From assembly GCF_012985205.1 (NCBI RefSeq), contig NZ_JABEKS010000001.1, forward strand, positions 496,001 through 560,000: DNA of 64,000 nucleotides, in the 5' to 3' direction. Position 1 is the stretch's first letter, and every line of letters begins with the position of its first letter. The translations under genes were made by a program, and so were the position numbers. This document shows, one piece after another, positions 1-19,336 of this stretch. The notes below the pieces were generated by a model that had not been told where the DNA came from, ran no database searches, and saw only the letters and a list, made by a program, of their open reading frames with translations. The stretch comes from Planctomonas sp. JC2975. GTDB taxonomy: Bacteria > Actinomycetota > Actinomycetes > Actinomycetales > Microbacteriaceae.

Positions 1-35
1 ATCACCCGGCGATCCGCGCTGCGGTAGCCGTATGA
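1..35 (+). CDS. thyA: Thymidylate synthase, C-terminal end only
   Basis: The first 35 bases read in frame as the tail HPAIRAAVAV followed by TGA. This matches the conserved C-terminus of ThyA, which makes dTMP from dUMP and methylene-tetrahydrofolate. The stop overlaps the next start as ATGA (ATG at 32, TGA at 33-35), so thyA and folA are translationally coupled. This is the usual thyA-folA pair, in which the reductase recycles the dihydrofolate that ThyA produces. Only ten residues are visible, so the call rests on those residues plus the neighbour. Confidence 0.8.
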   Translation, partial: HPAIRAAVAV

Positions 36-523: not shown

Positions 524-617
524 AGCTCTGCGGATCCAGATGCCCTGCGGATCCGGCGGGACTCCCTAGGTCGTCCGAGCCGAATGCCCCTGAGCCGGAG
601 TTCGTGCCGGGTGCGAC

Positions 618-737
618 TCAGCGCGAGCGGTAAGGGGTGTGGCCCATCTGAATGGCGGCACCGATCCCGAGAATCGCTCCGACGATGCCGATGACGCCGA
701 TGATTCCCCAGAGGATCGCTTCAACCATGGTGTCCAT
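618..737 (-). CDS. Small single-pass membrane protein, 39 aa, unknown
   Basis: A 39-residue protein beginning MDTMVEAILWG and ending GHTPYRSR. It is almost entirely one hydrophobic Ile/Gly/Val-rich helix (about residues 7-31) with a basic tail. A longer open frame runs upstream through the M23 gene, but only this tail has membrane-protein composition, and ATG at 737 is the natural start. A weak GATGGA lies just upstream. It converges on folA and diverges from the M23 peptidase gene. I do not recognise the family; small glycine-rich membrane peptides of this kind may stabilise envelope complexes, but that is inference. Confidence 0.5.
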   Translation of the reverse strand: MDTMVEAILWGIIGVIGIVGAILGIGAAIQMGHTPYRSR

Positions 738-920
738 TATTCCATCGTCAGAAGTCGCCCGTGCGCAGTGCACCGACCGGCTGCCGGCGGCATCGTCGAA
801 CGCGGTCCGACCGAACCCGGGAATCCTCCCAGCGCACGTTGTCCGCCCCGGCGCCCGGTGCCAGACTCGTAGGCGAGCAGGTATTCGGCTGGACCAGTGG
901 GTACGGGGTATTTCGGGGTT

Positions 921-2339: not shown

Positions 2340-2438
2340 CGGATGACGCACCGCACCTGCACGGTCTGCGTGGTGCGACTTCGTTCGGCGATCGGAAAAC
2401 TCTGGGGACCGTCTTCGGCGTGATCGACGACCTATTGG

Positions 2439-2511
2439 TGGGCCCTGCCGGGATCGAACCGACGACATCCACGGTGTAAACGTGGCGCTCTACCGACTGA
2501 GCTAAAGGCCC
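2439..2511 (-). tRNA. tRNA-Val (anticodon TAC)
   Basis: Complete cloverleaf on the minus strand. The acceptor GGGCCTT pairs with AGGGCCC (one G-T). The D arm is AGCTCAGTCGGTAGAGC. The anticodon stem CCACG/CGTGG has loop TTTACAC, so the anticodon is UAC. The T arm is TCGGTTCGATCCCG. The 3' CCA is encoded (2436-2438). A TAGACT -10 box lies at 2520-2525, about 8 nt before the 5' end. Confidence 0.95.
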
Positions 2512-2519
2512 GCGCGTGC

Positions 2520-2525
2520 AGTCTA
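2520..2525 (-). promoter_or_regulatory. -10 box for tRNA-Val
   Basis: On the minus strand this reads TAGACT, matching the actinobacterial TANNNT -10 consensus. It is placed to start transcription 2-3 nt before the mature tRNA 5' end. No good -35 is visible. Confidence 0.4.
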
Positions 2526-2566
2526 TCGGCCGGATCGCGTGCGTCCGGCAGGCGACATCCGTTCGC

Positions 2567-3034
2567 TCAGGCCGCCTTGAGCTCCTCCAGCGCGATGCGG
2601 TACGCCTCGAGGGTTCGCGCCTCGCCCGGCGCCGTGATGAAGCTCTCGCGGATGATTCCGCTCGAGTCGATGAGGAAGGTGGCGCGGTTCGCGAAGCCTT
2701 TGTCCTCCAAGAACACGCCGTACTGCTTTGCGGTGTCGCCGTGCGGCCAGAAGTCACTCAGCAGCGTGAAGTCGTACGACTCCTGCCCCGCCCAGGCGCG
2801 CAGCGCGAACTTCGAGTCGACCGAGATGCCGATCAGTTCGACGCCGTCCGCCCGGAAGATCTCGAGGTTGTCGCGCAGCTCGCACAGCTCGCCGGTGCAG
2901 GTGCCGGAGAAGGCGAGGGGGAAGAAGACCAGCGCCACAGCGCTCTTTCCGCGGTAGTCACTGAGCCGGATGTGCTCGCCGAACTGGTTCGGCAGCTCGA
3001 AATCAGGTGCCTGAGTGTCGTTCTCGAGGGCCAC
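2567..3034 (-). CDS. ahpE: Thioredoxin-fold peroxiredoxin, AhpE/Bcp type
   Basis: Cytoplasmic thiol peroxidase that reduces hydroperoxides, 155 residues. The hallmark FFPLAFSGTCTGEL carries the peroxidatic Cys at about residue 46. LLSDFWPHG and NRATFLID match mycobacterial AhpE closely. A second Cys at about residue 51 makes a CxxxxC pair typical of Bcp, whereas classical AhpE is one-Cys. The GTG at 3034 is the start because AAAGGAG precedes it at good spacing; the frame stays open upstream only as high-GC noise. It is monocistronic, followed by tRNA-Val on the same strand. Confidence 0.88.
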   Translation of the reverse strand: MALENDTQAPDFELPNQFGEHIRLSDYRGKSAVALVFFPLAFSGTCTGELCELRDNLEIFRADGVELIGISVDSKFALRAWAGQESYDFTLLSDFWPHGDTAKQYGVFLEDKGFANRATFLIDSSGIIRESFITAPGEARTLEAYRIALEELKAA

Positions 3035-3167
3035 CGTCGCTCCTTTCGGGTGATGAACACCACACGAATCGCTGGATGCACCGCCTGCCGGCGCGCACGG
3101 TACGAAAGCATAGACCGCGGGTCGCGGGCCGGATCGGCGTGCGCGCCGAACGATCAGGATCGTGATC

Positions 3168-3246
3168 ATCGCGGCTCGCGCCGCTCAGCGACTCGATGGG
3201 GTCCGTTACCGATGCCGGCGAGAATACCGAATCCTCAATCGTGGCT
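3168..3246 (+). repeat. 84-bp element, copy A (upstream of aceE)
   Basis: First of two tandem imperfect copies. The opening 36 nt (3168-3203) match copy B at 30 positions. CAATCG at 3236-3241 and TATCGT at 3246-3251 fall at offsets 68 and 78, exactly as in the other copies. The hairpin seen in copies B and C is not preserved here. The last bases are shared with the start of copy B, giving a 79-nt period. Confidence 0.55.
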
Positions 3247-3330
3247 ATCGTGGCTCACGCCACTCATCGACTCAATCGGGTCGGTTCCGGCGCGAGCGCC
3301 GGAACCGCTCCCCCCAATCGTCGATAGGCT
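3247..3330 (+). repeat. 84-bp element, copy B (aceE upstream region, hairpin plus -10-like box)
   Basis: This copy has a 36-nt conserved block containing GACTCAATCGGGTC and a perfect 10-bp inverted repeat with a 4-nt loop at 3283-3306 (GGTTCCGGCG/CGCCGGAACC). CAATCG follows at 3315 and TAGGCT at 3325-3330. The same modules at the same spacing recur at 9442-9525 before acpP. TAGGCT fits the TANNNT -10 consensus and lies 80 nt before the aceE start, so the element may be, or contain, the aceE promoter. The rest of 3035-3410 shows no gene. Confidence 0.65.
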
Positions 3331-3410
3331 GGCCTACGGCGTGCCGCCTGTCGTAACCCGACAGAGCCGAGCGCCGCCCACGATCGATCCACACAAAGAA
3401 AGAGGTCGCG

Positions 3411-6137
3411 GTGTCTGTCAACGACCAGGACCCGTATTCGGTGAACTACATCGACTCGGACCCTGAGGAGACTGCCGAGTGGCAGGAATCCCTCGAATCG
3501 CTCGTAGCCACCGAGGGCCACCAGCGGGCGCGGGAGATCATTCTCAGCCTGTTGAAGAGGTCGAAGGAACTCCACCTCGGCGTGCCCATGGTCCCCACCA
3601 CGGACTACATCAACACCATCGCCCCGGAGAACGAGCCGGACTTCCCCGGTGACGAGGAGATCGAGCGTCGATACAGGGCGTGGATCCGCTGGAACGCCGC
3701 GATCCTCGTGCACCGTGCGCAGCGTCCCGGCATCGCGGTCGGCGGCCATATCTCCACCTACGCGTCGAGCGCCGCCCTCTACGAGGTCGGCTTCAACCAC
3801 TTCTTCCGCGGCCAGGACCACCAGGGCGGCGGCGACCAGATCTTCATCCAGGGGCACGCCTCCCCCGGCCCCTATGCACGCGCCTTCCTCGAGGGACGCC
3901 TGTCGGCGGATCAGCTGGACGGGTTCCGTCAGGAGAAGTCGCACGCCCCGAACGGTCTCTCGTCTTACCCGCACCCGCGGCTCATGCCGGAGTTCTGGCA
4001 GTTCCCGACGGTGTCCATGGGCCTCGGACCGATCAACGCGATCTACCAGGCGCAGCTCAACAAGTACCTCACCAACCGCGGCATCAAGGACACGTCCGAC
4101 CAGCATGTCTGGGCGTTCCTCGGTGACGGGGAGATGGACGAGGTCGAAAGCCGCGGCCAGCTCCAGGTCGCTGCGAACGAGGGCCTGGACAACCTCACCT
4201 TCGTGATCAACGCGAACCTGCAGCGCCTCGACGGACCGGTGCGGGGCAACGGCAAGATCATCCAGGAGCTCGAGAGCTTCTTCCGTGGCGCCGGCTGGAA
4301 CGTCATCAAGGTCGTCTGGGGTCGTGAATGGGACGACCTGCTCGCCAAGGACACCGACGGCGCTCTGCTCAACATCATGAACACGACGCCCGACGGCGAC
4401 TACCAGACGTACAAGGCCGAGAGCGGCTCGTACGTGCGCGAGCACTTCTTCGGGAAGGATCCGCGCGCACTGGAGCTCGTGAAGGACTACTCCGACGAGC
4501 AGATCTGGAACCTCAAGCGCGGTGGCCACGACTACCGCAAGGTGTACGCGGCGTTCAAGGCGGCACTCGAGCACAAGGGCCAGCCGACAGTCATCATCGC
4601 CAAGACCATCAAGGGCTACGGTCTCGGTCCGCACTTCGAGGGCCGTAACGCGACCCACCAGATGAAGAAGATGACGCTGGACAACCTCAAGACGTTCCGC
4701 GACTCGATGCACATCCCGATCACGGATGAGCAGCTCGCCGAGAACCCGTACCTCCCGCCGTACTACCACCCGGGCGAGAACGACGAGGCCATCCAGTACA
4801 TGCTGGAGCGTCGCCGCGCACTCGGCGGATTCCTGCCGGAGCGCCGCTCCAAGTACACGCAGATCCCTCTGCCCGACGACAGCGCCTACGCCGTCTCGCG
4901 TCGTGGATCGGGTACGCAGGAGATCGCCACCACGATGGCGTTCGTGCGTCTGCTGAAAGACCTGCTGCGCGTCAAGGGCTTCGGCCACCGCATCGTGCCG
5001 ATCATCCCCGACGAGGCCCGCACGTTCGGCATCGACGCGTTCTTCCCGAACGCGAAGATCTACAACCCGAACGGTCAGCACTACACGTCGGTCGACCGCG
5101 AGCTGCTGCTCTCCTACAAGGAGAGCCCGCAGGGTCAGATGATCCACGTCGGCATCAACGAGGCGGGCGCCATGGCCGCCTTCACCAACGTCGGAACGTC
5201 GTACGCGACGCACGGTGAGCCGCTCATCCCCGTCTACGTCTTCTACTCGATGTTCGGGTTCCAGCGCACCGGCGACGCGATGTGGGCGGCCGGCGACCAG
5301 ATGGCGCGCGGGTTCATCATGGGAGCCACGGCCGGACGCACCACGCTCACAGGCGAGGGCCTGCAGCATGCGGACGGTCACTCCCCCATGCTCGCAGCGA
5401 CCAACCCCGCCGTGGTGACCTACGACCCGGCATACGCGTACGAGATCGGGCACATCGTGAACGCCGGTCTGGAGCGGATGTACGGCGGCAATCATCCTGA
5501 TCCGAACGTCATGTACTACCTCACCGTGTACAACGAGCCGATGGTCCAGCCCGCCGAACCGGAGGGCCTCGACGTGGACGGCGTCGTGCGGGGCATCTAC
5601 AAGCTGCGCGCCGCCGAGGGCGACGGACCTAGGGCGCAGCTCCTCGGATCCGGTGTCTCGGTGCCGTGGGCTCTCGAGGCGCAGGAACTGCTGGCGAACG
5701 ACTGGGGCGTGCGCGCCGATGTCTGGAGCGTCACCAGCTGGAACGAGCTCCGCCGGGACGGCCTGGCCGCCGACGAGCACAACTTCCTGCACCCGCAGGA
5801 GGAGAAGCGCGTTCCCTACGTGACCAGCAAGCTCGCCGGTGCGGAAGGCCCCTTCGTGGCCACGACGGACTACGCTCACGCGGTTCCCGACCAGATCCGC
5901 GCGTACGTTCCGGGCGAGTTCGCGACGCTCGGCGCCGACGACTTCGGGTTCTCGGACACCCGTGCCGCTGCACGCCGCTTCTTCAAGATCGACGGACCGT
6001 CGATGGTGGTGCGCACGCTCGAACTGCTCGCTGCACGCGGACAGGTCGACCCCTCGGCCCCCGCTCAGGCGATCGAGCGCTACCGGCTCTACGACGTCAA
6101 TGCCGGCACCACGGGGGTCGCCGGCGGCGAGAGCTAG
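3411..6137 (+). CDS. aceE: Pyruvate dehydrogenase E1 component (homodimeric)
   Basis: Decarboxylates pyruvate with thiamine diphosphate and passes the acetyl group to the lipoyl E2, feeding acetyl-CoA into the TCA cycle and lipid synthesis. The 908-residue length is typical of the single-chain E1 of actinobacteria and gamma-proteobacteria. The ThDP motif is [12 protein letters not shown]...[13 protein letters not shown] (about 235-285). The active-site regions [11 protein letters not shown] and [11 protein letters not shown], the transketolase-like central domain and the C-terminal domain are all intact. The GTG start has AGAGG upstream. E2 and E3 genes are not in the window. fasR follows after 11 nt, so the two are probably co-transcribed. 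Confidence 0.97.
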
Positions 6138-6148
6138 GCAGCGAGCAC

Positions 6149-7351
6149 GTGGCGAAGCCGAAGACCAAGGACGAGACCCTCGCCTGGCTGCGGAAGATCT
6201 CGGGTGAGCTGGCGACAGCGACCCTGAAACGGCTCGAAGACACGCTTCCGTGGTACCGAGAGATGCCACCGGGCCGGCGCTCCGCCGTCGGCCTGGTGGC
6301 CCAGGCCGGCATCACCTCGTTCATCGCATGGTTCGATGATCCGCGTTCCACGCCGTGGATCGCGGCGGACGTGTTCGGTGCGGCCCCTCGCGAGCTTCTC
6401 CGATCGGTGTCGCTGCAACAGACGCTGCAGCTGATCCGCGTGACGGTCGAGGTGGTCGAGGACCGCGTGCGCAGCGGAGGCAACGAAGAGCTGCGCGAGG
6501 CCATCCTGCTGTACTCCCGTGAGATCGCCTTCGGGGCAGCGGATGTCTACGCACGCGCCGCTGAGGCACGCGGGCTCTGGGACGCGCGCCTGGAGGCGCT
6601 GGTCGTCGACTCGATCCTCACCGGCGAGTACGACGACGAGTTGCCGAGTCGGATCGCCGCCCTCGGCTGGCATGGTCACGGCGAGGTGAGCGTGCTCGTC
6701 GGCACCGCACCGACGCAGCTGGATGTCGACGCCCTGCGCCGGATCGCTCGGCACATGGCGGCCGATGTACTCATCGGAGTACAGGGATCGCGGCTGGTGC
6801 TGGTGATCGGACGAGCTCAACCGCGCTCCAGCGAATCCGACGAGGTCGGTCCGTCTAACTCGATCACGTTCATCGAGATTGCTCGACAGCTCGAGTCGGG
6901 CTTCGGACCCGGGCACCTGGTGCTCGGCCACGAGGTACCCGGCCTGGTCGACGCCTCGAAGAGTGCGCGTGCGGCCCTCGCCGGATTCGCCGTGGCGAAG
7001 GCGTGGCGGAACTGCCCGCGTCCGGTGCACGCTGACGATCTGCTGCCCGAGAGGGCGTTCGCAGGCGATCCGCTTGCCAGGAGCACGCTCGTCGGCCGCA
7101 TCTACCGCCCGCTGCAGGCGCATTCGCCGGAGCTGCTGAACACGCTGTGGAGCTACCTCGACAACGGCCGCTCGCTCGAGGCGACGGCACGCGAGCTCTT
7201 CGTGCATCCGAACACGGTGCGGTACAGGCTCAAGCGCGTGACGGATGTCATCGGCTGGGACGCCACGGGAGCGCGCGAGGCCCTCATTCTGCAGGCGGCC
7301 CTGATCGTCGGTTCCATCAACGAGCCGGACGCACCCGCCCGACGACGGTGA
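6149..7351 (+). CDS. fasR: PucR-family regulator of fatty acid synthesis (FasR-like)
   Basis: DNA-binding regulator of 400 residues. The C-terminus carries the PucR helix-turn-helix, with LEATARELFVHPNTVRYRLKRV at about 345-366. The N-terminal two-thirds resemble the Streptomyces FasR family, which activates the fabD-fabH-acpP-fabF cluster. Its position between aceE and fabD is the standard actinobacterial one and supports that role. The start is the GTG at 6149, 11 nt after the aceE stop; the frame remains open back into aceE but that part is shadow. The ligand is unknown. Function is assigned by family and position, not by a recognised operator. Confidence 0.85.
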   Translation: MAKPKTKDETLAWLRKISGELATATLKRLEDTLPWYREMPPGRRSAVGLVAQAGITSFIAWFDDPRSTPWIAADVFGAAPRELLRSVSLQQTLQLIRVTVEVVEDRVRSGGNEELREAILLYSREIAFGAADVYARAAEARGLWDARLEALVVDSILTGEYDDELPSRIAALGWHGHGEVSVLVGTAPTQLDVDALRRIARHMAADVLIGVQGSRLVLVIGRAQPRSSESDEVGPSNSITFIEIARQLESGFGPGHLVLGHEVPGLVDASKSARAALAGFAVAKAWRNCPRPVHADDLLPERAFAGDPLARSTLVGRIYRPLQAHSPELLNTLWSYLDNGRSLEATARELFVHPNTVRYRLKRVTDVIGWDATGAREALILQAALIVGSINEPDAPARRR

Positions 7352-7401
7352 TGTCGCCAAGGCCACCGCGACCGAGAATCCGAACAGGAGAGCGCACGAC
7401 G

Positions 7402-7488
7402 ATGTACGACACCGACAAACGATCCGCCGGTAGTTCATGGAACCCCGACACGGATGCGTTCGAAGCGATTGGCAGACTAGAACGGTGA
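7402..7488 (+). CDS. 28-aa upstream ORF overlapping the fabD start
   Basis: An ATG with AGGAG 11 nt upstream opens a 28-residue frame (MYDTDKRSAG...AIGRLER). Its TGA overlaps the fabD GTG as GTGA (7485-7488). fabD has no Shine-Dalgarno of its own, so ribosomes finishing this frame could reinitiate on fabD. The peptide is hydrophilic and matches nothing I recognise. An alternative is that fabD is leaderless from a weak CAGACT box at 7473-7478, exactly 6 nt before GTG, in which case this frame is incidental. Confidence 0.45.
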   Translation: MYDTDKRSAGSSWNPDTDAFEAIGRLER

Positions 7489-8414
7489 TCGTCGTCGCCT
7501 GCCCTGGACAGGGTTCGCAAACTCCTGGCTTCCTCGCGCCCTGGTTGGCCGACTCGGCTTCCCGCGCGCTCGTAGAGCGGTTCTCGGAAGTCACCGGCGT
7601 CGACCTGATCCGACACGGCACCGAGTCGGACGCGGAGACCATCCGCGACACGGCCATCGCCCAGCCGCTCATCGTCGCCGCCAGTCTTCTCGCGCTGCAC
7701 GCGCTGCGTGCTGCGGCCCCGGATGCGGTGATCGGCGGCATCGCCGGCCACTCTGTCGGTGAGGCGGCTGCCGCCGCCGGTGCCGGCATCCTCTCCGAGG
7801 ACGACGCGCTCCGCTTCGTGCGAGCGAGGGCCCTGCTGATGGCCGAGGCCGCCGCTGCGACGCCGACTGGCATGAGTGCCGTCCTCGGCGGCGACCAGGA
7901 CGCGGTGATCGAGCACATCACAGAGTTCGGCCTGGAGCCGGCCAATTACAACGGCGGCGGTCAGATCGTGGTCGCCGGCGCCCTGGATGCGCTGGGCAGA
8001 CTCGGCGAGGATCCGCTCCGCGGAACGCGCGTCGTTCCGCTCCAGGTGGCCGGTGCCTTCCACACGCACTACATGCAGCCAGCGAGGGACGGCCTGGAGA
8101 AGGTCGCAGCGGACTTCGCCGTGACGGATCCTGCGCTCACCATCTGGACCAACAGGGATGGATCGGTCGTGGACTCCGGATCGGAGTACCTCCGGCTGAT
8201 TGTCGGTCAGGTGGCCTCACCCGTGCGCTGGGACCTGTGCATGGCTTCCTTCGAGTCGGCGGGGATCACCGGCCTGATCGAGCTGACCCCAGGCGGCGCC
8301 CTCACCGGCTTGGCGAAGCGCGGTCTGAAGGGCGTGCCGGCCGTCGCGATCAAGACGCCCGACGATCTCACCGCGGCAGTGGAACTGCTCGCCGCCGCAG
8401 GAAGCGAAGACTGA
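7485..8414 (+). CDS. fabD: Malonyl-CoA:ACP transacylase
   Basis: Loads malonyl units onto AcpP for type II fatty acid synthesis. The 309-residue length is normal. The N-terminal CPGQGSQ oxyanion loop, the nucleophile Ser at about 90 in GHSVGE, and His at about 193 in GAFHTHYM are present. GTG 7485 is chosen because VIVVACPGQGSQ is the family N-terminus and the start overlaps the small ORF before it. It is first of the fabD-fabH-acpP-fabF run, and fabH starts 2 nt after its stop. Confidence 0.95.
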   Translation: MIVVACPGQGSQTPGFLAPWLADSASRALVERFSEVTGVDLIRHGTESDAETIRDTAIAQPLIVAASLLALHALRAAAPDAVIGGIAGHSVGEAAAAAGAGILSEDDALRFVRARALLMAEAAAATPTGMSAVLGGDQDAVIEHITEFGLEPANYNGGGQIVVAGALDALGRLGEDPLRGTRVVPLQVAGAFHTHYMQPARDGLEKVAADFAVTDPALTIWTNRDGSVVDSGSEYLRLIVGQVASPVRWDLCMASFESAGITGLIELTPGGALTGLAKRGLKGVPAVAIKTPDDLTAAVELLAAAGSED

Positions 8415-8416
8415 AC

Positions 8417-9421
8417 ATGAGCACACCCCGACTGAACCAGTCGACGGGACCGCAGTACACGCGGATCCTCTCGCTCGGAGCGGCACGCGGCAGCAACGCC
8501 GTGCCGAACGACGACCTCGTCGGACCGATTAACTCGTCGGACGAGTGGATCCGGCAGCGCACCGGCATCATCACCCGCGCCCGCGCCCCGCACGATGTGC
8601 TCGCGATGGATCTCGCGACGGATGCAGCCCGCGAGGCCGTCGAGAAATCCGGCATCGCGCCGTCCGACATCGACCTCGTGCTCATCGCCACGATCAGCAA
8701 CGTTCGCCAGACGCCGTCGATGTCGGCCGTCGTCGCGGATCGGATCGGCGCCAACCCGGCTGCCGCGTATGACCTGAACGCGGCCTGCGCCGGATACGCA
8801 TACGCGGTCGCCCAGGCCGACGCGCTCATCCGTGCCGGCGCCGCCCACTACGCGGTCGTCGTCGGCGCCGAGAAGCTGTCGGATGTCGTCGACCCTGCCG
8901 ACCGCAGCATCTCCTTCCTCCTGGGCGACGGTGCCGGCGCAGCCGTCATCGGGCCGAGCGACGAGCCCGGCATCGCCCCCACGGTCTGGGGATCCGACGG
9001 ATCCAAGGCCGACACGGTCGGCATGGATCACACCCTCGTCGAGTTCCGCGACGGCGAAGCCGGCTGGCCGACGCTGCGGCAGGACGGACCGTCCGTCTTC
9101 CGCTGGGCGGTCTGGGAGATGGTCAAGGTGGCGCGGCGCGCCATCGAAGCAGCCGGCATCGAGCCAGGCGACCTCTCCGCGTTCATCCCCCACCAGGCGA
9201 ACATGCGCATCGTCGACGAGCTGGCGAAACAGCTCAAGCTTCCGGAGACGGTCGTGATCGCCCGCGATATCGAGACCACGGGAAACACGTCAGCGGCCTC
9301 GATACCGCTCGCCGCCCACCGACTGCTGTCGGAGCATCCGGAACTGAGCGGCACGCTCGCTCTGCAAATCGGCTTCGGTGCCGGCCTCGTGTTCGGGGCG
9401 CAGGTCGTCGTGCTGCCCTGA
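8417..9421 (+). CDS. fabH: 3-oxoacyl-ACP synthase III (KAS III)
   Basis: Starts fatty acid chains by condensing an acyl-CoA primer with malonyl-ACP. In a branched-chain actinobacterium it would prefer iso/anteiso primers, although the sequence does not prove that. The protein has 334 residues. The catalytic triad is visible as Cys124 (AACAGY), His259 (IPHQANMR) and Asn290 (TTGNTSAASIP). It follows fabD by two bases and is probably translated from the same message. Its stop is followed directly by repeat element C, which may restart transcription for acpP. Confidence 0.96.
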   Translation: MSTPRLNQSTGPQYTRILSLGAARGSNAVPNDDLVGPINSSDEWIRQRTGIITRARAPHDVLAMDLATDAAREAVEKSGIAPSDIDLVLIATISNVRQTPSMSAVVADRIGANPAAAYDLNAACAGYAYAVAQADALIRAGAAHYAVVVGAEKLSDVVDPADRSISFLLGDGAGAAVIGPSDEPGIAPTVWGSDGSKADTVGMDHTLVEFRDGEAGWPTLRQDGPSVFRWAVWEMVKVARRAIEAAGIEPGDLSAFIPHQANMRIVDELAKQLKLPETVVIARDIETTGNTSAASIPLAAHRLLSEHPELSGTLALQIGFGAGLVFGAQVVVLP

Positions 9422-9441
9422 ACGGCCCCTCGATCGCCTCT

Positions 9442-9525
9442 ATCGTGGCTTCGCCCCTCAATAACTCAATCGGGTCGGCCGGACGAGCAAGCTCATCCGG
9501 CTCTCGCCTCAATCGCCTTTAGACT
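9442..9525 (+). repeat. 84-bp element, copy C (upstream of acpP)
   Basis: Matches copy B module by module. ATCGTGGCT opens the block and ACTCAATCGGGTCGG closes the 5' part. An inverted repeat follows at 9478-9501, whose stem sequence differs from copy B but is still paired (GCCGGA/TCCGGC and GAGC/GCTC). CAATCG lies at 9510 and TAGACT at 9520-9525. Distances from hairpin end to CAATCG (9 nt) and to the TAG box (19 nt) are identical in B and C. TAGACT is a good -10 candidate for acpP, 38 nt before its ATG. Confidence 0.65.
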
Positions 9526-9563
9526 GTTCTGCTGTCACCTGACACCCAAGGAGAAACAAACCC

Positions 9564-9812
9564 ATGGCACTTTCCCGCGAAGAAGTCCTCGCCGGCCTGG
9601 CCGAGCTGATCAACGACGAGACCGGCATCGCGACGGACACCGTCGAGTACGAGAAGTCCTTCACCGACGACCTCGACATCGACTCGATCTCGATGATGAC
9701 GATCGTCGTCAACGCCGAGGACAAGTTCGACGTCAAGATCCCGGACGAAGAGGTCAAGAATCTCAAGACCGTCGGCGACGCCGTCGACTTCATCGTCAAC
9801 GCTTCGGCGTGA
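9564..9812 (+). CDS. acpP: Acyl carrier protein
   Basis: The 82-residue acidic helical carrier that holds growing acyl chains on 4'-phosphopantetheine. The attachment serine is Ser41 in DDLDIDSISMM. Most ACPs have DSL, so the DSI here is a conservative variant. AAGGAG precedes the ATG at normal spacing. It lies between fabH and fabF, but unlike its neighbours it is flanked by a promoter-like repeat upstream and a strong hairpin downstream. That fits the need to make ACP in excess over the enzymes. Confidence 0.96.
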   Translation: MALSREEVLAGLAELINDETGIATDTVEYEKSFTDDLDIDSISMMTIVVNAEDKFDVKIPDEEVKNLKTVGDAVDFIVNASA

Positions 9813-9815
9813 CCT

Positions 9816-9845
9816 GATCGGCGCGGCTCGCTGGCCGCGCCGATC
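9816..9845 (+). terminator. Hairpin between acpP and fabF
   Basis: A perfect 12-bp stem (GATCGGCGCGGC/GCCGCGCCGATC) with a 6-nt loop lies three bases after the acpP stop and is followed by a C/T-rich run. It has no U tract, so it may be a partial terminator or an mRNA-stabilising 3' end for a short acpP transcript. Confidence 0.6.
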
Positions 9846-9902
9846 CTCTCCTTCCTTCCACCCGCTTGCACAGGCGCTTCAGCGCGCCCGAGGTTCGGAC
9901 AC

Positions 9903-11144
9903 ATGACACCCAAGAAGATCGTCGTCACCGGTATCGGAGCCAGTACGCCCATCGGCGGCACCGCAGTCGACAGCTGGAACGCTCTCCTGGCGGGCGAATC
10001 CGGAACGCGCACACTCACCCACGAATGGGTCGAGAAGTACGAACTCCCGATCCGGTTCGCGGCAGAGGCGAAGGTGCGCCCCGAGGAGGTCCTGGAGCGG
10101 CCCGTGGCCAAGCGTCTCGACCCGGTTGCCCAGTTCGCGCTCGTGTCCGCTCTGGAGGCATGGGCCGATGCCGGTGCCCCCGAGGTGGATCCCGATCGAC
10201 TGGGCGTGGACTTCGCGACGGGCATCGGCGGCATGTGGACGCTTCTGGACGCTTGGGACACACTGCGTGAGCGCGGCCCGCGCCGCGTGATGCCGCTCAC
10301 GGTCCCGATGCTGATGCCGAATGCGCCGGCGGCCGCGATCTCGATGCACTTCAACGCCAGGGCCTTCGCTCGAACCGTCGCATCGGCTTGCGCCTCGAGC
10401 ACGGAATCCATTGCGAATGCTTACGAGCACTTGCAGGCGGGTCTGGCCGACGTGGTGATCGCCGGAGGATCCGAATCGGCCGTTCACCCCATCACGATGG
10501 CCGCGTTCGCGTCGGCGCAGGCGATGTCCAAGCGGAACGACGATCCCGAGCACGCGTCCCGTCCGTACAGCGTCGATCGCGACGGCTTCGTCATGGGCGA
10601 GGGCGCTGCGAGCCTCGTGCTCGAGACGGAGGAGCACGCGATCGCCCGCGGCGCCCACATCTACGCGGAGCTCGCGGGTGGTGGGGTGACCGCCGACGCG
10701 TACCACATCACAGCGAACGATCCTGAGGGCAAGGGCGCTCGCCGGGCGCTCATCCTGGCGCTCGAGCAAGCGGGAGCCTCACCCGACGAGGTGACGCACA
10801 TCAACGCGCACGCCACCAGCACTCCGGTCGGCGACATCGCGGAGTACGTCGCACTGAAGTCGGTCTTCGGCGACCGCGTGAACTCGATTCCGACGTCTGC
10901 GACGAAGGCGTCGACTGGTCACTTGCTCGGTGGCACGGGCGCACTCGAGGCGATGTTCACCGTACTGGCGTTGCGCGACCGCATCGCTCCTCCGACGATC
11001 AACATCACCACTCAGGATCCGGAGATCCCGTTGTCGGTGTCCGGCGAATCGCAGAAGCTGCCGGATGGCCCGCAGCTCGCGGTTTCGAACTCCTTCGGAT
11101 TCGGCGGCCACAACGCGGTCGTCGCATTCCGCAGCGTGGACTGA
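9903..11144 (+). CDS. fabF: 3-oxoacyl-ACP synthase II (KAS II)
   Basis: Extends acyl-ACP chains by condensation with malonyl-ACP. It has 413 residues. Cys163 sits in the VASACASSTE nucleophile motif; the two catalytic histidines are in NAHATSTPVGD and SFGFGGHNAV. The N-terminus KIVVTGIGASTPIG is typical. A GAGG precedes the ATG. It is last gene of the fab cluster, with a strong terminator 25 nt after the stop. Confidence 0.96.
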   Translation: MTPKKIVVTGIGASTPIGGTAVDSWNALLAGESGTRTLTHEWVEKYELPIRFAAEAKVRPEEVLERPVAKRLDPVAQFALVSALEAWADAGAPEVDPDRLGVDFATGIGGMWTLLDAWDTLRERGPRRVMPLTVPMLMPNAPAAAISMHFNARAFARTVASACASSTESIANAYEHLQAGLADVVIAGGSESAVHPITMAAFASAQAMSKRNDDPEHASRPYSVDRDGFVMGEGAASLVLETEEHAIARGAHIYAELAGGGVTADAYHITANDPEGKGARRALILALEQAGASPDEVTHINAHATSTPVGDIAEYVALKSVFGDRVNSIPTSATKASTGHLLGGTGALEAMFTVLALRDRIAPPTINITTQDPEIPLSVSGESQKLPDGPQLAVSNSFGFGGHNAVVAFRSVD

Positions 11145-11169
11145 TCAGGGGACGAGTTCCGATAGACCT

Positions 11170-11205
11170 GACGCCGGGAGGGTCCGATGGATCCCTCCCG
11201 GCGTC
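11170..11205 (+). terminator. Terminator after the fab cluster
   Basis: Perfect 13-bp stem (GACGCCGGGAGGG/CCCTCCCGGCGTC) with a 10-nt loop, followed by GTCGTCTCC. It marks the end of the fab operon, before the convergent DUF3145 gene. Confidence 0.8.
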
Positions 11206-11329
11206 GTCGTCTCCCCGCGTGCCGCCCCTTGTCCCTCTGCGGGCCCGCTTCGCTTTCGCAGCGCCGGGAATGCACATCCGGCCACCGCTAATCGCGCCGC
11301 AGGCCCGCTGAGGAACCCTTGTGCCGGCC

Positions 11330-11833
11330 TCACCCCACCTTGTGCAGCCAGATCACCGGCGCGTCATCGCTGGCGTGTCGGAATGGTTCGAGCTCGTCGT
11401 CCCATGCTTGTCCCAACGCCAGCCGCAGTTCGCGCTGCAGTTCCATCGCGTTGGCGCCCGCGATCTCCATCGCGTACCGAACGCGGTCCTCGGGAACGAC
11501 CATGTTGCCAGCTGTATCGGTCTGGGCGTGGAAGATGCCGAGGGAGGGCGTGTGGATCCACCGTCCGCCGTCCGTACCAACAGCGGCATCCTCCGTCACT
11601 TCGAAGCGGAGGTGCTGCCAGCCGAGCAGGCCGGAGGCGATCCGCGCTGCGGTTCCGCGCTCGCCTTCCCAGAAGAACTCGGATCGCACCGCGCCGGGCA
11701 GCACCGGCTGGTCCTGCCACTGGAAGTAGACGGGACGCTGAAGCGCGCGTCCTACCGACCATTCGACATGGGGGCTGAGCGCGCGAGGAGAGGAGTGCAC
11801 GAAAAGCACCCCTCGAGCCTGTGTTGGCGCCAT
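11330..11833 (-). CDS. DUF3145 family protein
   Basis: A conserved actinobacterial protein of unknown function, 167 residues, without signal peptide or membrane segment. Family features seen are the N-terminal RGVLFVHSSP, the aromatic WSVGRAL...VYFQWQDQPV segment and the C-terminal WDDELEPFRHASDD followed by VIWLHKVG. The ATG at 11833 is preferred over an in-frame ATG at 11890 because ACGGAGG lies just upstream and the conserved domain begins there. It is monocistronic, with a good promoter about 100 nt upstream. Confidence 0.85.
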   Translation of the reverse strand: MAPTQARGVLFVHSSPRALSPHVEWSVGRALQRPVYFQWQDQPVLPGAVRSEFFWEGERGTAARIASGLLGWQHLRFEVTEDAAVGTDGGRWIHTPSLGIFHAQTDTAGNMVVPEDRVRYAMEIAGANAMELQRELRLALGQAWDDELEPFRHASDDAPVIWLHKVG

Positions 11834-11935
11834 GGTGTCCTCCGTTCGATGTGGTGCGTCTTCCCCTACGACCACGAACGGATGCGCCATGCGGCGTTGT
11901 CTGCCGGCTGACGCCGACGGACAGCATTATCCCCC

Positions 11936-11965
11936 GGTGAGGCCGCGAATCACAAGGGTGTGATC
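11936..11965 (-). promoter_or_regulatory. Promoter for the DUF3145 gene
   Basis: Minus-strand TTGTGA (11960-11965) and GATAAT (11936-11941) are separated by 18 nt, giving a roughly 95-nt 5' leader before ATG 11833. This is one of the few places in the window with both boxes recognisable. Confidence 0.5.
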
Positions 11966-12021
11966 CTCGTGTCGCTCTCGCGGTCGCTCTCGCGGTCGTG
12001 GCATTGCGGTGAGAACTGCTG

Positions 12022-12048
12022 TGTCGGATTCGGAGCGCCCTGTTCGAC
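12022..12048 (+). promoter_or_regulatory. Putative ECF42-type promoter
   Basis: TGTCGG (12022-12027), 17 nt, then CGAC (12045-12048). This resembles the TGTCGA/CGA-type promoters reported for ECF42 sigma factors, and it stands directly before the YCII-sigma pair. That would make the pair autoregulated. The match is by eye. Confidence 0.5.
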
Positions 12049-12100
12049 GTGAGTGTGAGGCGAGAGCGCTCATCCACCCCCGACAACCAGGAGACGTCAG

Positions 12101-12529
12101 ATGAAGTACATGCTGCTGCAGGCATCCGATCCAACGCGGGGGGACGGCGAGGCCGCCGGCGCGGATCCTGCCGCGATGGATGCGTTCAACGACCGCTTGA
12201 TCCGCGCAGGGGTGCTGCTGGCCGGTGACGGTCTCGAGGTCGGGGATGCCGGCATCCGCGTGTCGTATTCCGGTGACGGCAGGGCAGTGACGGCGGGTGC
12301 ACTCTCCGCTCCTTCCGAGCCGGTCTGCGGCTTCTGGATCCTTCAGGTGGCATCGCGAGAAGAGGCCGTCGAATGGGCGCGTCGGATGCCGCTCACCGGG
12401 GGCACCGTCGAGGTGCGGAAGGTGCTCGACTCGACCGAGCCCGACACGCGCGGCACGGGCGCAGGGCGTGCGAGACTGCACGCGTTGGATGACACGGATG
12501 AGGACGCATGGCGGACGCGATCGAGGTGA
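12101..12529 (+). CDS. YCII/DGPF-domain protein linked to ECF42 sigma factor
   Basis: A 142-residue protein of the YCII-related (DGPF) family. N-terminal MKYMLLQASDP and the central GFWILQVASREEAVEWARRMP segment are typical. The usual D-G-P-F tetrapeptide is diverged here. AGGAG precedes the ATG. It overlaps the sigma-factor gene by 22 nt, so the two are translationally coupled. DGPF proteins are almost always encoded beside ECF42 sigma factors and are their likely targets or effectors; the biochemical activity is unknown. Confidence 0.85.
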   Translation: MKYMLLQASDPTRGDGEAAGADPAAMDAFNDRLIRAGVLLAGDGLEVGDAGIRVSYSGDGRAVTAGALSAPSEPVCGFWILQVASREEAVEWARRMPLTGGTVEVRKVLDSTEPDTRGTGAGRARLHALDDTDEDAWRTRSR

Positions 12530-13809
12530 CCGGCGAGCCTGGCGGCGTGGACGCGGCGACGGCAGCGGCGGTACGGCGGGAGATCGAGACGGTGTGGCGA
12601 CTCGAGGCGGCCAAGGTCGTGGCGACTCTGGCGCGCATGGTGGGCGATCTCGGACGTGCGGAAGATCTCGCCCAGGACGCGCTCGTCGAGGCGATGCAGT
12701 CGTGGCCTCGCACCGGCATTCCGCGCAACGCGGCGGCGTGGCTCACCTCTGTGGCGAAGCGTCGTGCCATCGACGCCTGGCGTCGTGACGAGCGCGCCAG
12801 CGAGAAGTACGCCCTGATCGCGGCGGCGGACGCCGGCGACGAGGAGCAGCCGGAACCTGACGAGACCCGCATCGACGACGATCTGCTGCGCCTTGTCTTC
12901 GTCTGCTGCCATCCCGTGCTTCCTGCTGCGTCGCGGGTGGCACTGGCGCTTCGCGTACTGTGCGGGCTCTCGACGGACGAGATCGCACGCGCGTACCTCG
13001 TGCCCTCCGCAACGATCGGCCAGCGCATCACCAGGGCCAAGCGCACGCTGCAGGCCGCCAATGTGCCGTTCGAGGTGCCCGATCGCACCGAGTTCGATGA
13101 GCGACTCGAGTCGGTGCTCGAGGTCGTGTACTTAGTCTTCAACGAGGGCTATGCGGCCACATCGGGCGAAGAGTGGATGCGACCGACGCTGGCCGAGGAG
13201 GCCATGCGGCTCGGTCGAGTGCTCGCCGAGCTCGTGCCGGATCACGCGGAGGCGCACGCACTCGTCGCGCTGATGGAGCTGCACGCCTCGCGGTTCGCAT
13301 CCCGCCGAGCGCCGGACGGCGCTGCGATCCCACTGGCGACGCAGGACCGCGCTCGGTGGGACCGGATCCTGATCGCGCACGGGCTGGCTGCCCTGCAGCG
13401 CGCGGATGCCCTCGGTGGTGAGCGCGGCCCTTACGCTCTGCAGGCGGCCATCGCCGCCTGCCACGCGAGGGCCATGACGACCGAGGACACGGACTGGGCG
13501 CAGATCGCTGGCCTCTACGACGCGCTCGCCGAGCGCACGCCCTCCCCCGTCGTCGATCTCAATCGGGCCGTCGCCGTAGGGATGGCTTATGGCCCCGAGG
13601 CGGGCCTGGACGCCCTGGAGCCGCTGAACGATGTCAAGGCCCTGTCGTCGTATGCTCTGCTTCCCGCAGTGCGTGGCGACCTCCTGGAGCGTCTCGGAAG
13701 GCTGTCCGAGGCGCGCGGCGCGTTCCTCGAGGCCGCTGCCCTCACCTCGAACGAGCGGGAGCGGGACGAGCTCCTGCGTCGCGCTGCAGCGGCCGACCCG
13801 CTCGGGTGA
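12508..13809 (+). CDS. ECF42-type RNA polymerase sigma factor with C-terminal helical extension
   Basis: 433 residues. Sigma region 2 (about 40-90) includes DLAQDALVEAMQSWP and SVAKRRAIDAWRRDERA. Region 4 (about 140-190) includes LCGLSTDEIARAYLVPSATIGQRITRAKRTL. A TPR-like C-terminal domain of over 200 residues follows, with EAHALVALMELHASR and PVVDLNRAVAVGMAYGPEAGL. This extension replaces an anti-sigma partner in the ECF42 group and is thought to control activity. GAGG precedes ATG 12508. No anti-sigma gene is nearby. The signal it responds to is unknown. Confidence 0.9.
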   Translation: MADAIEVTGEPGGVDAATAAAVRREIETVWRLEAAKVVATLARMVGDLGRAEDLAQDALVEAMQSWPRTGIPRNAAAWLTSVAKRRAIDAWRRDERASEKYALIAAADAGDEEQPEPDETRIDDDLLRLVFVCCHPVLPAASRVALALRVLCGLSTDEIARAYLVPSATIGQRITRAKRTLQAANVPFEVPDRTEFDERLESVLEVVYLVFNEGYAATSGEEWMRPTLAEEAMRLGRVLAELVPDHAEAHALVALMELHASRFASRRAPDGAAIPLATQDRARWDRILIAHGLAALQRADALGGERGPYALQAAIAACHARAMTTEDTDWAQIAGLYDALAERTPSPVVDLNRAVAVGMAYGPEAGLDALEPLNDVKALSSYALLPAVRGDLLERLGRLSEARGAFLEAAALTSNERERDELLRRAAAADPLG

Positions 13810-13840
13810 GCGAAGGAGTCCGCGTTGGCCTGGGACCGGA

Positions 13841-14680
13841 TCAGAACTCGTGCAGCAACGATCCGTCCTTCTTCAGCACGTTCTTCTCCCCCGCCTCGAT
13901 CCTGACCGTGAACCTGTTCTGCAGAGGCGGCATCGGGCAGTTGAAGGCGTAGCTGAACGCGCAGGGCGGCAGGATCGCCCGGTTGAAGTCGAGCGTGATC
14001 GTGCCGTCGGCGTTGGGGGCGACGAAGAGGAATCGGCCGACCGAGTACGTGTCGGTGCCGCTCGTGGCATCCGAGAAGACGAGCTGCAGCGCTCGCCCCG
14101 CCTTGAACGCAGCCAGGTTGTAGTCGACGCCGTCCTTCTGGAACGTGATCTCGCCGGGGATGGCCTTCTCGCGTGACGCGCCCTCGTCCTTGAGGTGCTC
14201 GAAGCCCACGGAGAGACCCTCGACGGGCGTGAACGTTGCCTGGATGACCCAGTCGGGGTCGTATCGGTAGGCGTCGATCGATCCGAACTCCTGGATGCCC
14301 TCCGATTTCGTGTCCCACACCCGCAGGCCGTACTCGCCGGCCTCGTTCGCGATGACCGTGCCCGTCACGGTGTCGCTGAACGCGATCGTGCTGGGCGTAT
14401 CCGAGTCCTTTCCGCGCACGATCGCCTCTCCGTCGACGACGACGCCGTCCACGATGACGCCGTCCGAAGCGGATGCTGCGACCTTCAGCCCCGACTCCCC
14501 CGCAGGCAACGGTGACCAGACGCCGGCAGCGGCCCACACGGGCTGCGGTGCGGCATCCGTGATCCACTGCGTGTTCACGAGAGCGAGGTTGCCCGTCGGC
14601 TGGACGACGGAGAGCTCGCGACGGGAGTGGAAGGTGTCGAGGAGCGCTGCGGGATCTGCAGGGGTCACGGTGTCGGTCAT
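13841..14680 (-). CDS. DUF1684 family protein
   Basis: Cytosolic protein of 279 residues in the DUF1684 family. The diagnostic C-terminal signature is NRAILPPCAFSYAFNCPMPP followed by LQNR. Mid-protein segments VGRFLFVAP and ITLDFNRA are also typical. ATG 14680 has GGAAG upstream and starts at the domain boundary. An alternative GTG at 14821 overlaps the upstream stop as GTGA and would add 47 low-complexity residues. It converges with the sigma-factor gene and lies downstream of the Pol I-like gene, probably in one operon. Confidence 0.85.
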   Translation of the reverse strand: MTDTVTPADPAALLDTFHSRRELSVVQPTGNLALVNTQWITDAAPQPVWAAAGVWSPLPAGESGLKVAASASDGVIVDGVVVDGEAIVRGKDSDTPSTIAFSDTVTGTVIANEAGEYGLRVWDTKSEGIQEFGSIDAYRYDPDWVIQATFTPVEGLSVGFEHLKDEGASREKAIPGEITFQKDGVDYNLAAFKAGRALQLVFSDATSGTDTYSVGRFLFVAPNADGTITLDFNRAILPPCAFSYAFNCPMPPLQNRFTVRIEAGEKNVLKKDGSLLHEF

Positions 14681-14817
14681 GCTTCCATCCTGATGGGTCT
14701 GAGGGGCGTCGGTGGTCAGGCTGTCGCCGTGTGACGTGATCTGTGCAACGGCGGGCGCCGACGGTTTATTGCCGCTGTCCTCGAGTCGGGCTTCTCGTGC
14801 GGTGCTCTCCGGATCCG

Positions 14818-16599
14818 TCACTTGGCCTGGTCGTAGCTGTCGACGACCGCGACGCTCAGCGGGAACTCGACGGGGAAGCCGCCGAAGAGCAGCCGACCTG
14901 CTGACTTCGCGGATTCGCGGATGGCTTCTGCCGCCTGTTCGGCGAGTGATTCCGGCGCGTGCACGACGACCTCATCGTGCAGGAAGTAGACCAGATGAGG
15001 GCTCCGATCGAAAGGCGGGGCTGCCGCTCCACGCGGGTCGGCGTGCATGGTCGCGAGCCGGTTGCGGAGGTCGGCCATCCAGCACAGCGCCCATTCGGCG
15101 GCCGTGCCCTGCACGACGAAGTTGCGCGTGAAGCGTCCCCAGTCCCGCGCCCGCGATCGCGCGCGGCGCTCCTGTTCGGCGTCGGCGTCTGGCAGCGATG
15201 CGTTCCGCTGCTGCTCGAACCACGCCTCTGACGGCGCAGGCGATGTGCGGCCGAGAAGGGTGCTCACGCGATCTCCGCGCTCGCCTGCCTCTGCCGCGTC
15301 CGAGACGAGCGCCAGAGCCCGTGGAAACGCACGCGCGAGGCGCGGGAGCACCCGGGCGCCGTCGCCGGTCGTGCCGCCGTACATGGCGGCCAGCATGCCG
15401 ACCTTGGCATGTTGACGGGAGTCGACGACTCCGGACGCGACGAGGCCGTCGTAGAGGTCACGGCCACGGCCGGCATCGGCCATCCGTTCATCGTGCGCCA
15501 GTCCGGCGAGGATGCGCGGCTCCAGCTGCGCCGCGTCCGCCACGATGAGTTTCCAGCCGGGGTCCGCCACAACGGCAGCGCGGATCTGCTTCGGCAGTTG
15601 CAGCGCTCCGCCGCCGTTGGTGGCCCACCTGCCCGTGACCACGCCACCTGGCACGTATTCCGGGCGGAACCGTCCGTCGTGCACCCACGATTCCAGCCAC
15701 ACCCAGCCGTTGGCGGTGAAGAGCCGCGACAGCTTCTTGTACTCGAGCAACGCGTGCATCACCGGATGATCCACCTCGCGCAGCTCCCGCGCTCGTGTGG
15801 AGGTCGCGTTGATGCCGGCGCGCTGAAGAGCCTTCATGAGGTCGCCGGGCGAATCCGGATTCAGCGTCGAGGCGCCAAGGTGATTGCGGATCTCCCGGGC
15901 CAGTGCCTCCATGCGCTCCGGGCGACGGCCCTGCGGGCTGCGTCGGCCTAGGGCATCCGTCAGCAGGCGGTCGTGGACGTCCGCCCGCCACGGCAGGCCG
16001 GCATGGCGCATCTCGGCGGCGACGAGCGAGCCCGCCGATTCCGCAGCGAGGAGCAAGCGCAGGCGGGACGCGGCGGCAGCGTCGCGGACGGAGGCTATGG
16101 CATCCGCCTGGCTGCGCAGCTCGGCGAGTTCGTCAGTGGCCGCGATCGCGTCGGCGGGCTCGGCGTCGAGGCGGAAGAGCGCGTCATCGGGCTCGACGGA
16201 CTCCGGCGTCTCCATCGGCCAGGGTGGCGGCGCGCCGTTCAGAGACGAACCCTGCGTGGTCGCCGAGCCGCGAAGAATGGCCCCGCAGAGCGCGAGGTCA
16301 ACGCAACGCTCCACACGGATGCCTGCCTCGAGGAGTCGCGGATACCACGTGCGCGACGTGCGCCAGGCCCACCGCGGATGCTCCGCCTCCTCTCGGGAGA
16401 CGAGTGCTCTCCACTGGGCGAGGGTCCGACGCTCCTCCACGAACGGGACTCCTGCGGCGTCAGCGCGGGTGACGACTACGGCGGATTCGTCATCCGCTGT
16501 GCGTCTCGTGGCGTCGCGGTCCCTCTCGCGACCCCTGCCGTCCTCACTCCGCGAGAGCACATAGGCGGCGCGTCGGACATCGTCTGATGAGACGGCCAT
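14818..16599 (-). CDS. Bifunctional 3'-5' exonuclease/DNA polymerase (family A, stand-alone)
   Basis: A 593-residue family A polymerase lacking the 5' nuclease domain of PolA. The actinobacterial family is annotated as bifunctional 3'-5' exonuclease/DNA polymerase. Motif A is VVADAAQLEPRILA (metal-binding Asp). Motif B/O-helix is RQHAKVGMLAAMYGGTTGDG. Motif C is VYFLHDEVVV. The N-terminal exonuclease-like region is short and lacks an obvious DEDD set, so proofreading activity is doubtful. GAGGAG precedes ATG 16599. A role in repair synthesis is inferred only. It faces no partner genes that would narrow the role. Confidence 0.85.
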   Translation of the reverse strand: MAVSSDDVRRAAYVLSRSEDGRGRERDRDATRRTADDESAVVVTRADAAGVPFVEERRTLAQWRALVSREEAEHPRWAWRTSRTWYPRLLEAGIRVERCVDLALCGAILRGSATTQGSSLNGAPPPWPMETPESVEPDDALFRLDAEPADAIAATDELAELRSQADAIASVRDAAAASRLRLLLAAESAGSLVAAEMRHAGLPWRADVHDRLLTDALGRRSPQGRRPERMEALAREIRNHLGASTLNPDSPGDLMKALQRAGINATSTRARELREVDHPVMHALLEYKKLSRLFTANGWVWLESWVHDGRFRPEYVPGGVVTGRWATNGGGALQLPKQIRAAVVADPGWKLIVADAAQLEPRILAGLAHDERMADAGRGRDLYDGLVASGVVDSRQHAKVGMLAAMYGGTTGDGARVLPRLARAFPRALALVSDAAEAGERGDRVSTLLGRTSPAPSEAWFEQQRNASLPDADAEQERRARSRARDWGRFTRNFVVQGTAAEWALCWMADLRNRLATMHADPRGAAAPPFDRSPHLVYFLHDEVVVHAPESLAEQAAEAIRESAKSAGRLLFGGFPVEFPLSVAVVDSYDQAK

Positions 16600-16686
16600 G
16601 GCTCCTCGCGGAATCGGCGGATGCGACCTCGAGCCGGACGACTCGAAACTGTCTTCGATCGTAGTGGCTACGACCGACCCCGCAGA

Positions 16687-19206: not shown

Positions 19207-19336
19207 CGCAGAAGAGTCTTCTCCTTCGTGGGGGCGCCCCCGACCGGCTGAGCGCGTGCTTCAGAATTGTGACAGCCCACGCACATGTCGCGCTACGCGC
19301 ACTCACGGCCGGTGCCGGTGAGGCGTGAAGGTCCTC

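Follow-up and report, generated by a model that had tools for sequence, protein, structure and literature searches.

REP and BIME sequences, which accompany TnpA-REP (RAYT), are described in PMC8266576 as short palindromes at many intergenic sites with a conserved short motif at the foot of the hairpin; clustering and recognition of a single strand belong to the same description. The ends of IS200/IS605 elements, as set out for IS608 in PMC5934647, have the order guide, hairpin, cleavage site, and a short guide pairs with the end. ERIC, Correia/NEMIS and RUP are presented in PMC2229807 as non-autonomous elements below 200 bp with TA at their termini, and pneumococcal BOX, according to PMC3049150, is a modular and structured intergenic repeat that expands in tandem. 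We have analyzed a repeat of Planctomonas sp. JC2975 that resembles each of these elements in the traits just named; it was found in a stretch of 64,000 nucleotides, referred to here as the window. Mycobacterial interspersed repetitive units (MIRU) are dispersed tandem repeats of an actinobacterium, some of which overlap stop codons. The likeness to MIRU is one of description only, and the present repeat is palindromic, with covarying stems and an apparent landing at -10 boxes.

REP/RAYT systems have a GTAG-type tetranucleotide before the hairpin, which is lacking here, the foot motif being the octamer CTCAATCG. The repeat also differs from REP and BIME in having two hairpins in a fixed tandem unit whose right end lies on -10 boxes, and the Y1 HUH transposase (PF01797) of REP/RAYT systems was not detected in the five genomes of the genus. 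From IS200/IS605 elements it differs in the same lack of a Y1 transposase in those five genomes, in pentamers that vary between copies and in wobble pairs that favour the other strand; the pairing of guide with end is seen in its pentamers as a set but is weak in single-copy loci, and any cleavage site is putative. Unlike ERIC, Correia/NEMIS and RUP it has no terminal inverted repeats, is directional, forms tandem arrays and has stems that vary by locus. BOX is reported in PMC3049150 to be over-represented between convergent genes, whereas 23 of 44 loci of the present repeat lie on a -10 box. Since the repeat lacks a tested defining feature of REP/RAYT, of IS200/IS605 and of the TA-target MITEs, we treat it as a variant among interspersed palindromic repeats and not as a member of any of these three groups.

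Units in the window

According to a covariance model, the window holds three units only, A, B and C, each of 79 nt and on the forward strand, and none is located before fabD; B and C were measured from T|A to T|A. The unit consists of a small hairpin, a pentamer, CTCAATCG, a large variable hairpin, CTCAATCG again and a second pentamer, with the consensus (A/G)TCGCGGC-loop-GCCGCTC, inner pentamer A-N4, CTCAATCG, large hairpin, CTCAATCG, right-end pentamer N4-T. Copy C (9442-9520) is a complete unit between the T and the A of the acpP -10 box, matched by the model at G000:C1:505429-505515 with an E value of 2.8e-26, and four congeners are without it. The interval 9442-9525, in which the earlier note had described a hairpin element, is made up of this unit and the rest of the -10 box TAGACT (9520-9525).

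Within copy C, small hairpin 1 is degenerate (GGC-TTC-GCC, 9447-9455). The inner pentamer AATAA (9460-9464) is poorly matched to the right-end pentamer CCTTT (9516-9520), with two of five positions paired. The inner (9465-9472) and outer (9508-9515) conserved octamers, both CTCAATCG, enclose large variable hairpin 2 (9478-9501, arms 9478-9488 and 9491-9501), whose single mismatch is an A.C (T.G on the other strand). The last T of CCTTT is the first base of the native -10 box, which stands 44 nt before the ATG of acpP (9564-9812, forward strand, PP-binding domain). To the left of the unit lie an octamer, CTCGATCG, and a pentamer, CCTCT (together 9429-9441), which are probably the right end of an earlier copy that was lost.

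Copy B (3247-3325) precedes aceE (pyruvate dehydrogenase E1, 3411-6137, forward strand). Its right end is at the T|A of the -10 box TAGGCT (3325-3330), and its large hairpin (3283-3306) pairs perfectly. Copy A (3168-3246), which had gone unreported, is a degenerate unit in tandem with copy B (match G000:C1:499155-499241, E 9.6e-19). Between aceE and acpP lies a forward-strand gene for a regulator with a PucR-type HTH_30 and a GGDEF_2 domain (6149-7351), which we call FasR-like on the basis of its domains and neighbours. Searching positions 1-20000 of the window against Rfam 15 at E<=1 gave no match at the element; the matches obtained were a tRNA and one below the gathering score, both at about 2438-2511. 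The tRNA gene is on the minus strand at 2439-2511 (Rfam E 5.1e-13), outside the element.

Copy C had been said to keep every spacing of copy B, and counted by eye it does, 8 nt separating CAATCG from the end of the stem and 4 nt separating it from TAG; the 9 and 19 nt given earlier reflect a different way of counting. The stem was likewise correctly seen to have changed and still to pair, being GGTTCCGGCGC/GCGCCGGAACC in copy B and GCCGGACGAGC/GCTCATCCGGC, with one A.C mismatch, in copy C. Copy B is stable on both strands, none of 200 shuffles being as stable. For the top strand of copy C, folded as DNA, 73 of 200 shuffles are at least as stable, so that it does not stand out from them; its bottom strand folds better (4 of 200 as stable).

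Distribution of the repeat

The pattern ATCGTGGCT-N8-16-ACTCAATCGGGTC occurs at two places in the 4.36-Mb genome, namely copies B and C, with no occurrence of reversed-pattern controls. When ACTCAATCGGGTC was searched with one mismatch, tandem pairs 79 and 82 bp apart appeared elsewhere in the genome. One of these pairs is flanked on both sides by the stop codon of a convergent gene; from their translations we take the two genes to encode adenosylhomocysteinase and a siderophore-interacting protein.

The covariance model, built from eight copies, found 76 matches in this genome (G000) at E<=1 and 72 units at E<=0.01. The matches form 47 clusters of 1-4 units, 21 of them tandem; counts given below for 44 loci leave out three clusters whose last unit falls below the 72 at E<=0.01. 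In four congeners (G001-G004) the model found 22, 58, 6 and 25 units, all of these genus counts being lower bounds because 150 of about 2,500-3,200 first-look candidates were scored per genome. Among 150 sampled Microbacteriaceae, scanned with stricter filters and at most 29 candidates scored per genome, five had matches, and these were three genomes of the genus, G140 with two adjacent units (E 3.4e-12 and 1.2e-5) and G093 with one weak match. A scan for the exact double octamer hit 33 of 398 genomes; by reading, the real element was present, among the matches listed, only in four genus genomes (43, 51, 18 and 11 matches) and in G140, and G003 had no exact double octamer. The repeat is nearly genus-specific.

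In G140, a 2.1-Mb member of another genus of Microbacteriaceae, the units form one array (locus L186, about 1435-1637) that touches a tRNA-Arg gene (1613-1685), and its small hairpin is longer and different, yet paired. Three further Microbacteriaceae (G183, G016 and G199; loci L264, L277 and L263) have short-period tandem arrays that also contain CTCAATCG, with a period of 9 or 19 bp among the matches listed. Phages gave no match to the element and plasmids a single 29-nt match (E 0.8), and at least 120 stretches of viral contigs gave raw matches. In a literature search, none of the matches listed was titled as describing this element.

Filled and empty sites

None of the four congeners has the repeat in its acpP promoter, which reads ACCT|AGACT or CCTCT|AGACT without an insert; the empty site of G004 reads TGAACCGTCCCCTCT|AGACTG. 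A comparison of the filled site, CCTCT|A...CCTTT|A, with the empty CCTCT|AGACT of G004 would fit duplication of TA, but the filled site has an extra octamer on its left. The CCTCT to the left of copy C is the same pentamer as at the empty site of G004. Because of the extra octamer CTCGATCG on the left, the history of this site is not one clean insertion. We also fetched 80 loci from relatives by means of their FasR homologue and found acpP in 75 of them, one of these being congener G004 again. None of the 75 has the double octamer before acpP. A TA(A/G)-type -10 box is present in 74 (72 at 38-48 nt and two at 85 nt before the ATG) and one has no -10-like box. As the box is kept in relatives without the repeat, TAGACT is the native -10 box and the repeat sits directly on it. 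Judged by these alignments, the acpP copy is a lineage-specific insertion and not a FasR operator.

Shared control of aceE and acpP, possibly by FasR, had been put forward in the earlier note. In favour of a dyad or direct repeats that bind FasR, encoded between the two genes, is the fact that the combined pattern has its two exact genome matches at these two promoters; FasR of Streptomyces coelicolor, moreover, is reported in PMC7324645 to activate the fabD-fabH-acp-fabF operon. The proposal does not survive the wider comparison. Far from being confined to aceE and acpP, the element occupies about 44 loci, before genes of many functions, and by our gene predictions five of the 44 (one a weak match) are between convergent genes. 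The three units of the window include none before fabD. The acpP site is absent in four of four congeners and in all 75 relatives fetched by the FasR homologue, so that the conservation upstream of acpP on which the earlier proposal was to stand or fall is lacking. On the strength of this absence and of the dispersed copies we reject a shared FasR operator as very improbable, and we found no link between the FasR-like regulator and the repeat. A tempting regulatory tie between FasR, aceE and acpP is thereby removed, and its place is taken by a palindromic repeat with an unusual insertion rule.

We consider it likely that the element is a dispersed, tandem-forming, non-autonomous mobile palindromic repeat of one genus, with directional insertion at T|A. 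The acpP and aceE copies would then be two nearby landings. The aceE promoter, which carries two units in this genome, has none in G001 and G003 and possible remnants in G004 and G002. When the remnant loci (L202 and L203, of G004 and G002) are set against window positions 3228-3330, they hold GTCAATCG before TGGCTAGGCT, as well as CTATCGTGGCT; these are possibly scars of lost copies.

For 14 of the 47 clusters an aligned counterpart was available in the DNA fetched from relatives, and by reading at least one counterpart is without the element in 8 of the 14 (acpP, aceE, C1_162598, 250274, 296392, 299277, 333562 and 1024379); filled counterparts are over-represented among the 14, many of the relatives' loci having been fetched for holding the element. 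Three loci that are filled in this genome differ in G002 and G004: at C1_162598 the element is present in G002 and G004 is empty, at C1_1024379 it is present in G004 and G002 is empty, and at C1_296392 neither has it. Elsewhere both compared genomes are filled with different stems (C3_47457, C2_555080 and C1_773812 are examples). Movement is deduced from such differences between species that share about 87% identity, and not observed.

C1_333562 (L151, compared with L217) deserves separate mention. This genome and G002 share the small hairpin, the end pentamer and a similar left flank at this site, G004 being empty, and it seems to be one insertion common to two species. The large stems, however, are wholly different in the two genomes, and each is still paired. 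Stepwise compensation seems slow for such a change, and copying between arms or between copies may act.

Pairing and covariation

The earlier argument that a paired change in the stem implies selection on the structure is backed by the stems of the whole repeat family, from which it takes its weight, rather than by copies B and C alone. With one unit per locus, 549 of 646 positions of the large hairpin are Watson-Crick pairs, compared with a mean of 365 and a maximum of 393 in 2000 shuffles; this count covers the 35-nt large hairpins of 38 loci, with L133 and L138 dropped. Over all hairpin lengths, in 86 units, Watson-Crick pairs make up 822 of 944 in the hairpin and 338 of 430 in the pentamers. 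Most pairs of the large hairpin are seen as two to four Watson-Crick types. The four near-invariant pairs are matched by 5 to 64 of 2000 shuffles (35-nt hairpins only), and the presumed pair 5:30 is mostly G.T and is not paired. The first pentamer pair, invariably A-T where paired, does no better than shuffles and is uninformative. L133 and L138 were kept in the first per-pair analysis and dropped from the 86-unit count and from the left/right tetramer test below. The repeat thus offers some 40 natural variants of one fold in which change of the stem with pairing kept can be studied.

Mismatches are strongly biased, with 52 A.C and 10 G.T, a ratio reached by none of 2000 shuffles; by locus, A.C is in excess in 39 and G.T in 7, and 17 are tied. 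Since an A.C on one strand is a T.G on the other, the wobble pairs lie on the opposite strand, and the folded form is more likely to be of this strand. The better folding of the bottom strand of copy C agrees with this.

Inner and right-end pentamers tend to be reverse complements of each other. Over 44 loci the mean is 1.25 mismatches, compared with 2.75 (sd 0.13, minimum 2.11) in 10,000 shuffles, and 18 of the 44 pair perfectly. In 34 distinct units of relatives the mean is 1.24, against 2.47 when shuffled. Pairing is weak in the 23 single-copy loci, where 6 are perfect and 1, 8, 6 and 2 have one, two, three and four mismatches; partly this reflects mis-registered parses, and mis-registered inner pentamers (for example ranks 45, 56 and 57 and loci L133 and L138) were kept in the pentamer counts. 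In mixed arrays the inner pentamer matches the right end of the unit to which it belongs and not the left flank, as in C1:162598 unit 2, C1:867606 unit 2 and the G004 array at C1_1024379.

These pentamers raise the question whether a Y1 HUH transposase moves the repeat in the manner of IS200/IS605 or REP elements, with the inner pentamer as a guide that would pair with a right cleavage site NNNNT and choose targets. The order pentamer, hairpin, pentamer at the right end resembles the guide, hairpin and cleavage site of IS608 as given in PMC5934647, pentamer-end pairing is strong overall, and in mixed arrays it is to the unit's own right end that the pentamer pairs. Against it, no Y1 transposase was found in the five genus genomes at E<=0.001, a threshold at which 5 of 14 control genomes were positive, and at E<=10 those genomes gave two sub-threshold matches only (E 0.29 and 0.74). 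Likeness to the target is also weak at clean left flanks: the left and right tetramers differ by 1.27 mismatches, compared with 2.48 when shuffled, in 30 pairs curated by eye, but by about 1.9 in 4 in the 12 copies with clean flanks (hand count). Finally, it is the opposite strand that the bias in mismatches favours, and read on that strand the order misfits IS608. Guide-directed retargeting of the IS608 type is weakened by the dissimilarity of these clean flanks to the right-end pentamer and by the other-strand bias, and we regard the reading as a whole as unlikely.

Right ends at -10 boxes

In 23 of the 44 loci the right end falls exactly between the T and the A of a -10 box (TAnnnT). When right flanks are read as NNNN-TANNNT, the box is at offset 4 in these 23 loci and in at most two loci at any other offset from 0 to 39, the frequency of a TANNNT start among all T of the fetched loci being 0.4%. 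The next gene is on the same strand in 23 of 23, and the left end has a mirror-image box at one of the 44 loci. Of 26 terminal units in relatives, 16 are on TANNNT. So exact and one-way a match speaks for targeting, or else for a part played by the right end in the promoter; random landing followed by loss of harmful copies would give right ends spread through upstream regions.

Genes were predicted with a caller of our own, trained on 21 open reading frames of the window. In two of the 23 -10 loci the predicted start lies upstream of the unit's end, and the downstream frames were re-picked by a simpler rule. The predicted start is 13-19 nt past the last octamer in 14 of the 23, and such short distances suggest leaderless transcripts. 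Apart from acpP and aceE, 20 of 21 downstream proteins at these loci were scanned and 17 match Pfam at E<=1e-8. The kinds matched include class I and class II tRNA synthetases, IMP dehydrogenase, class-II aldolase, isocitrate/isopropylmalate dehydrogenase, RuvA, imidazoleglycerol-phosphate dehydratase, Sua5, UbiE and a cytochrome oxidase assembly protein; none of the 17 belongs to a fatty-acid synthesis family. By look, and with no control set, the genes behind the 23 promoters are mostly housekeeping genes, as would be expected if promoters that are often open are hit more.

The positions at promoters could also mean that the repeat, once spread, has been retained as a cis-regulatory module, its fold (a cruciform or an opposite-strand RNA) being kept to set promoter strength or to end upstream transcripts. 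The fixed orientation at -10 boxes, the wobble bias to one strand and C1_333562, seemingly one insertion with wholly different paired large stems in two species, are in keeping with this. The downstream functions are mixed, however, presence at the same promoter varies between species, and an element upstream of the -10 box should be outside the downstream transcript; such retention is therefore possible but somewhat unlikely. As for a role as terminator for all copies, it is contradicted by the 16 of 44 loci that by our gene predictions lie between divergent genes.

The fifth base of the right-end pentamer is T in 42 of 44 loci and the next base is A in 30 of 44 only. A T followed by an A at most right flanks would suit a TA-targeting MITE of the ERIC, Correia or RUP type, mobilized by a DDE enzyme (IS630/mariner-type) and surviving one-sidedly after insertion, the more so as TA is probably rare in this GC-rich genome except in -10 boxes and stop codons. 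The ends of the unit, however, are not inverted repeats: by inspection, ATCGTGGC... at one end bears no likeness to the AAAGGCGATTG... with which the other strand begins. Moreover, an orientation of 23 versus 1 is unexpected from a symmetric TA target, and the IS630-type DDE_3 domain (PF13358) is present in one of the five genus genomes and not in this one. We consider this origin quite unlikely. IS110 (PF01548) gave no match over the cut-off and one weak match in this genome, so that among PF01797, PF01548 and PF13358 there is no mobilizer candidate common to the genus.

A proposed route of insertion

In the reading that we favour, the repeat would be mobilized in a folded, single-stranded form, probably that of the strand opposite to the downstream promoter, by a putative enzyme supplied in trans. 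Insertion would follow a T, with a preference for the T(-12)|A(-11) step of native -10 boxes. The unit brings its own terminal T, so that the box TAnnnT would be rebuilt and the promoter would stay usable with a new upstream half; tandem copies would arise locally afterwards.

The -12T/-11A step is the upstream edge of the transcription bubble. More tentatively, the repeat may be a miniature element that lands in open promoter complexes: entering one strand between -12T and -11A in one orientation and rebuilding the -10 box with its own T, it would exchange the upstream half of native promoters, most of them of housekeeping genes (acpP, aceE and about 20 others), and the promoters would survive, while its hairpins would diversify with pairing kept. 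We regard this as conceivable rather than probable. If the landing rule holds, open promoter complexes would be a genomic target for the insertion of single-stranded DNA and a source of promoter rewiring.

Loci at gene ends

Fifteen of the other 21 loci face a convergent gene, and at 12 of these 15 its stop codon is no more than 21 nt away from where the last octamer ends. At C2:240195, C2:242693, C1:1710614 and C1:2695684 of this genome (L178, L166 and L177) the right-end pentamer is TCAGT, in which TCA is the stop codon (TGA) of the convergent gene. At other convergent loci the stop codon is inside the octamer (CGATTGAG).
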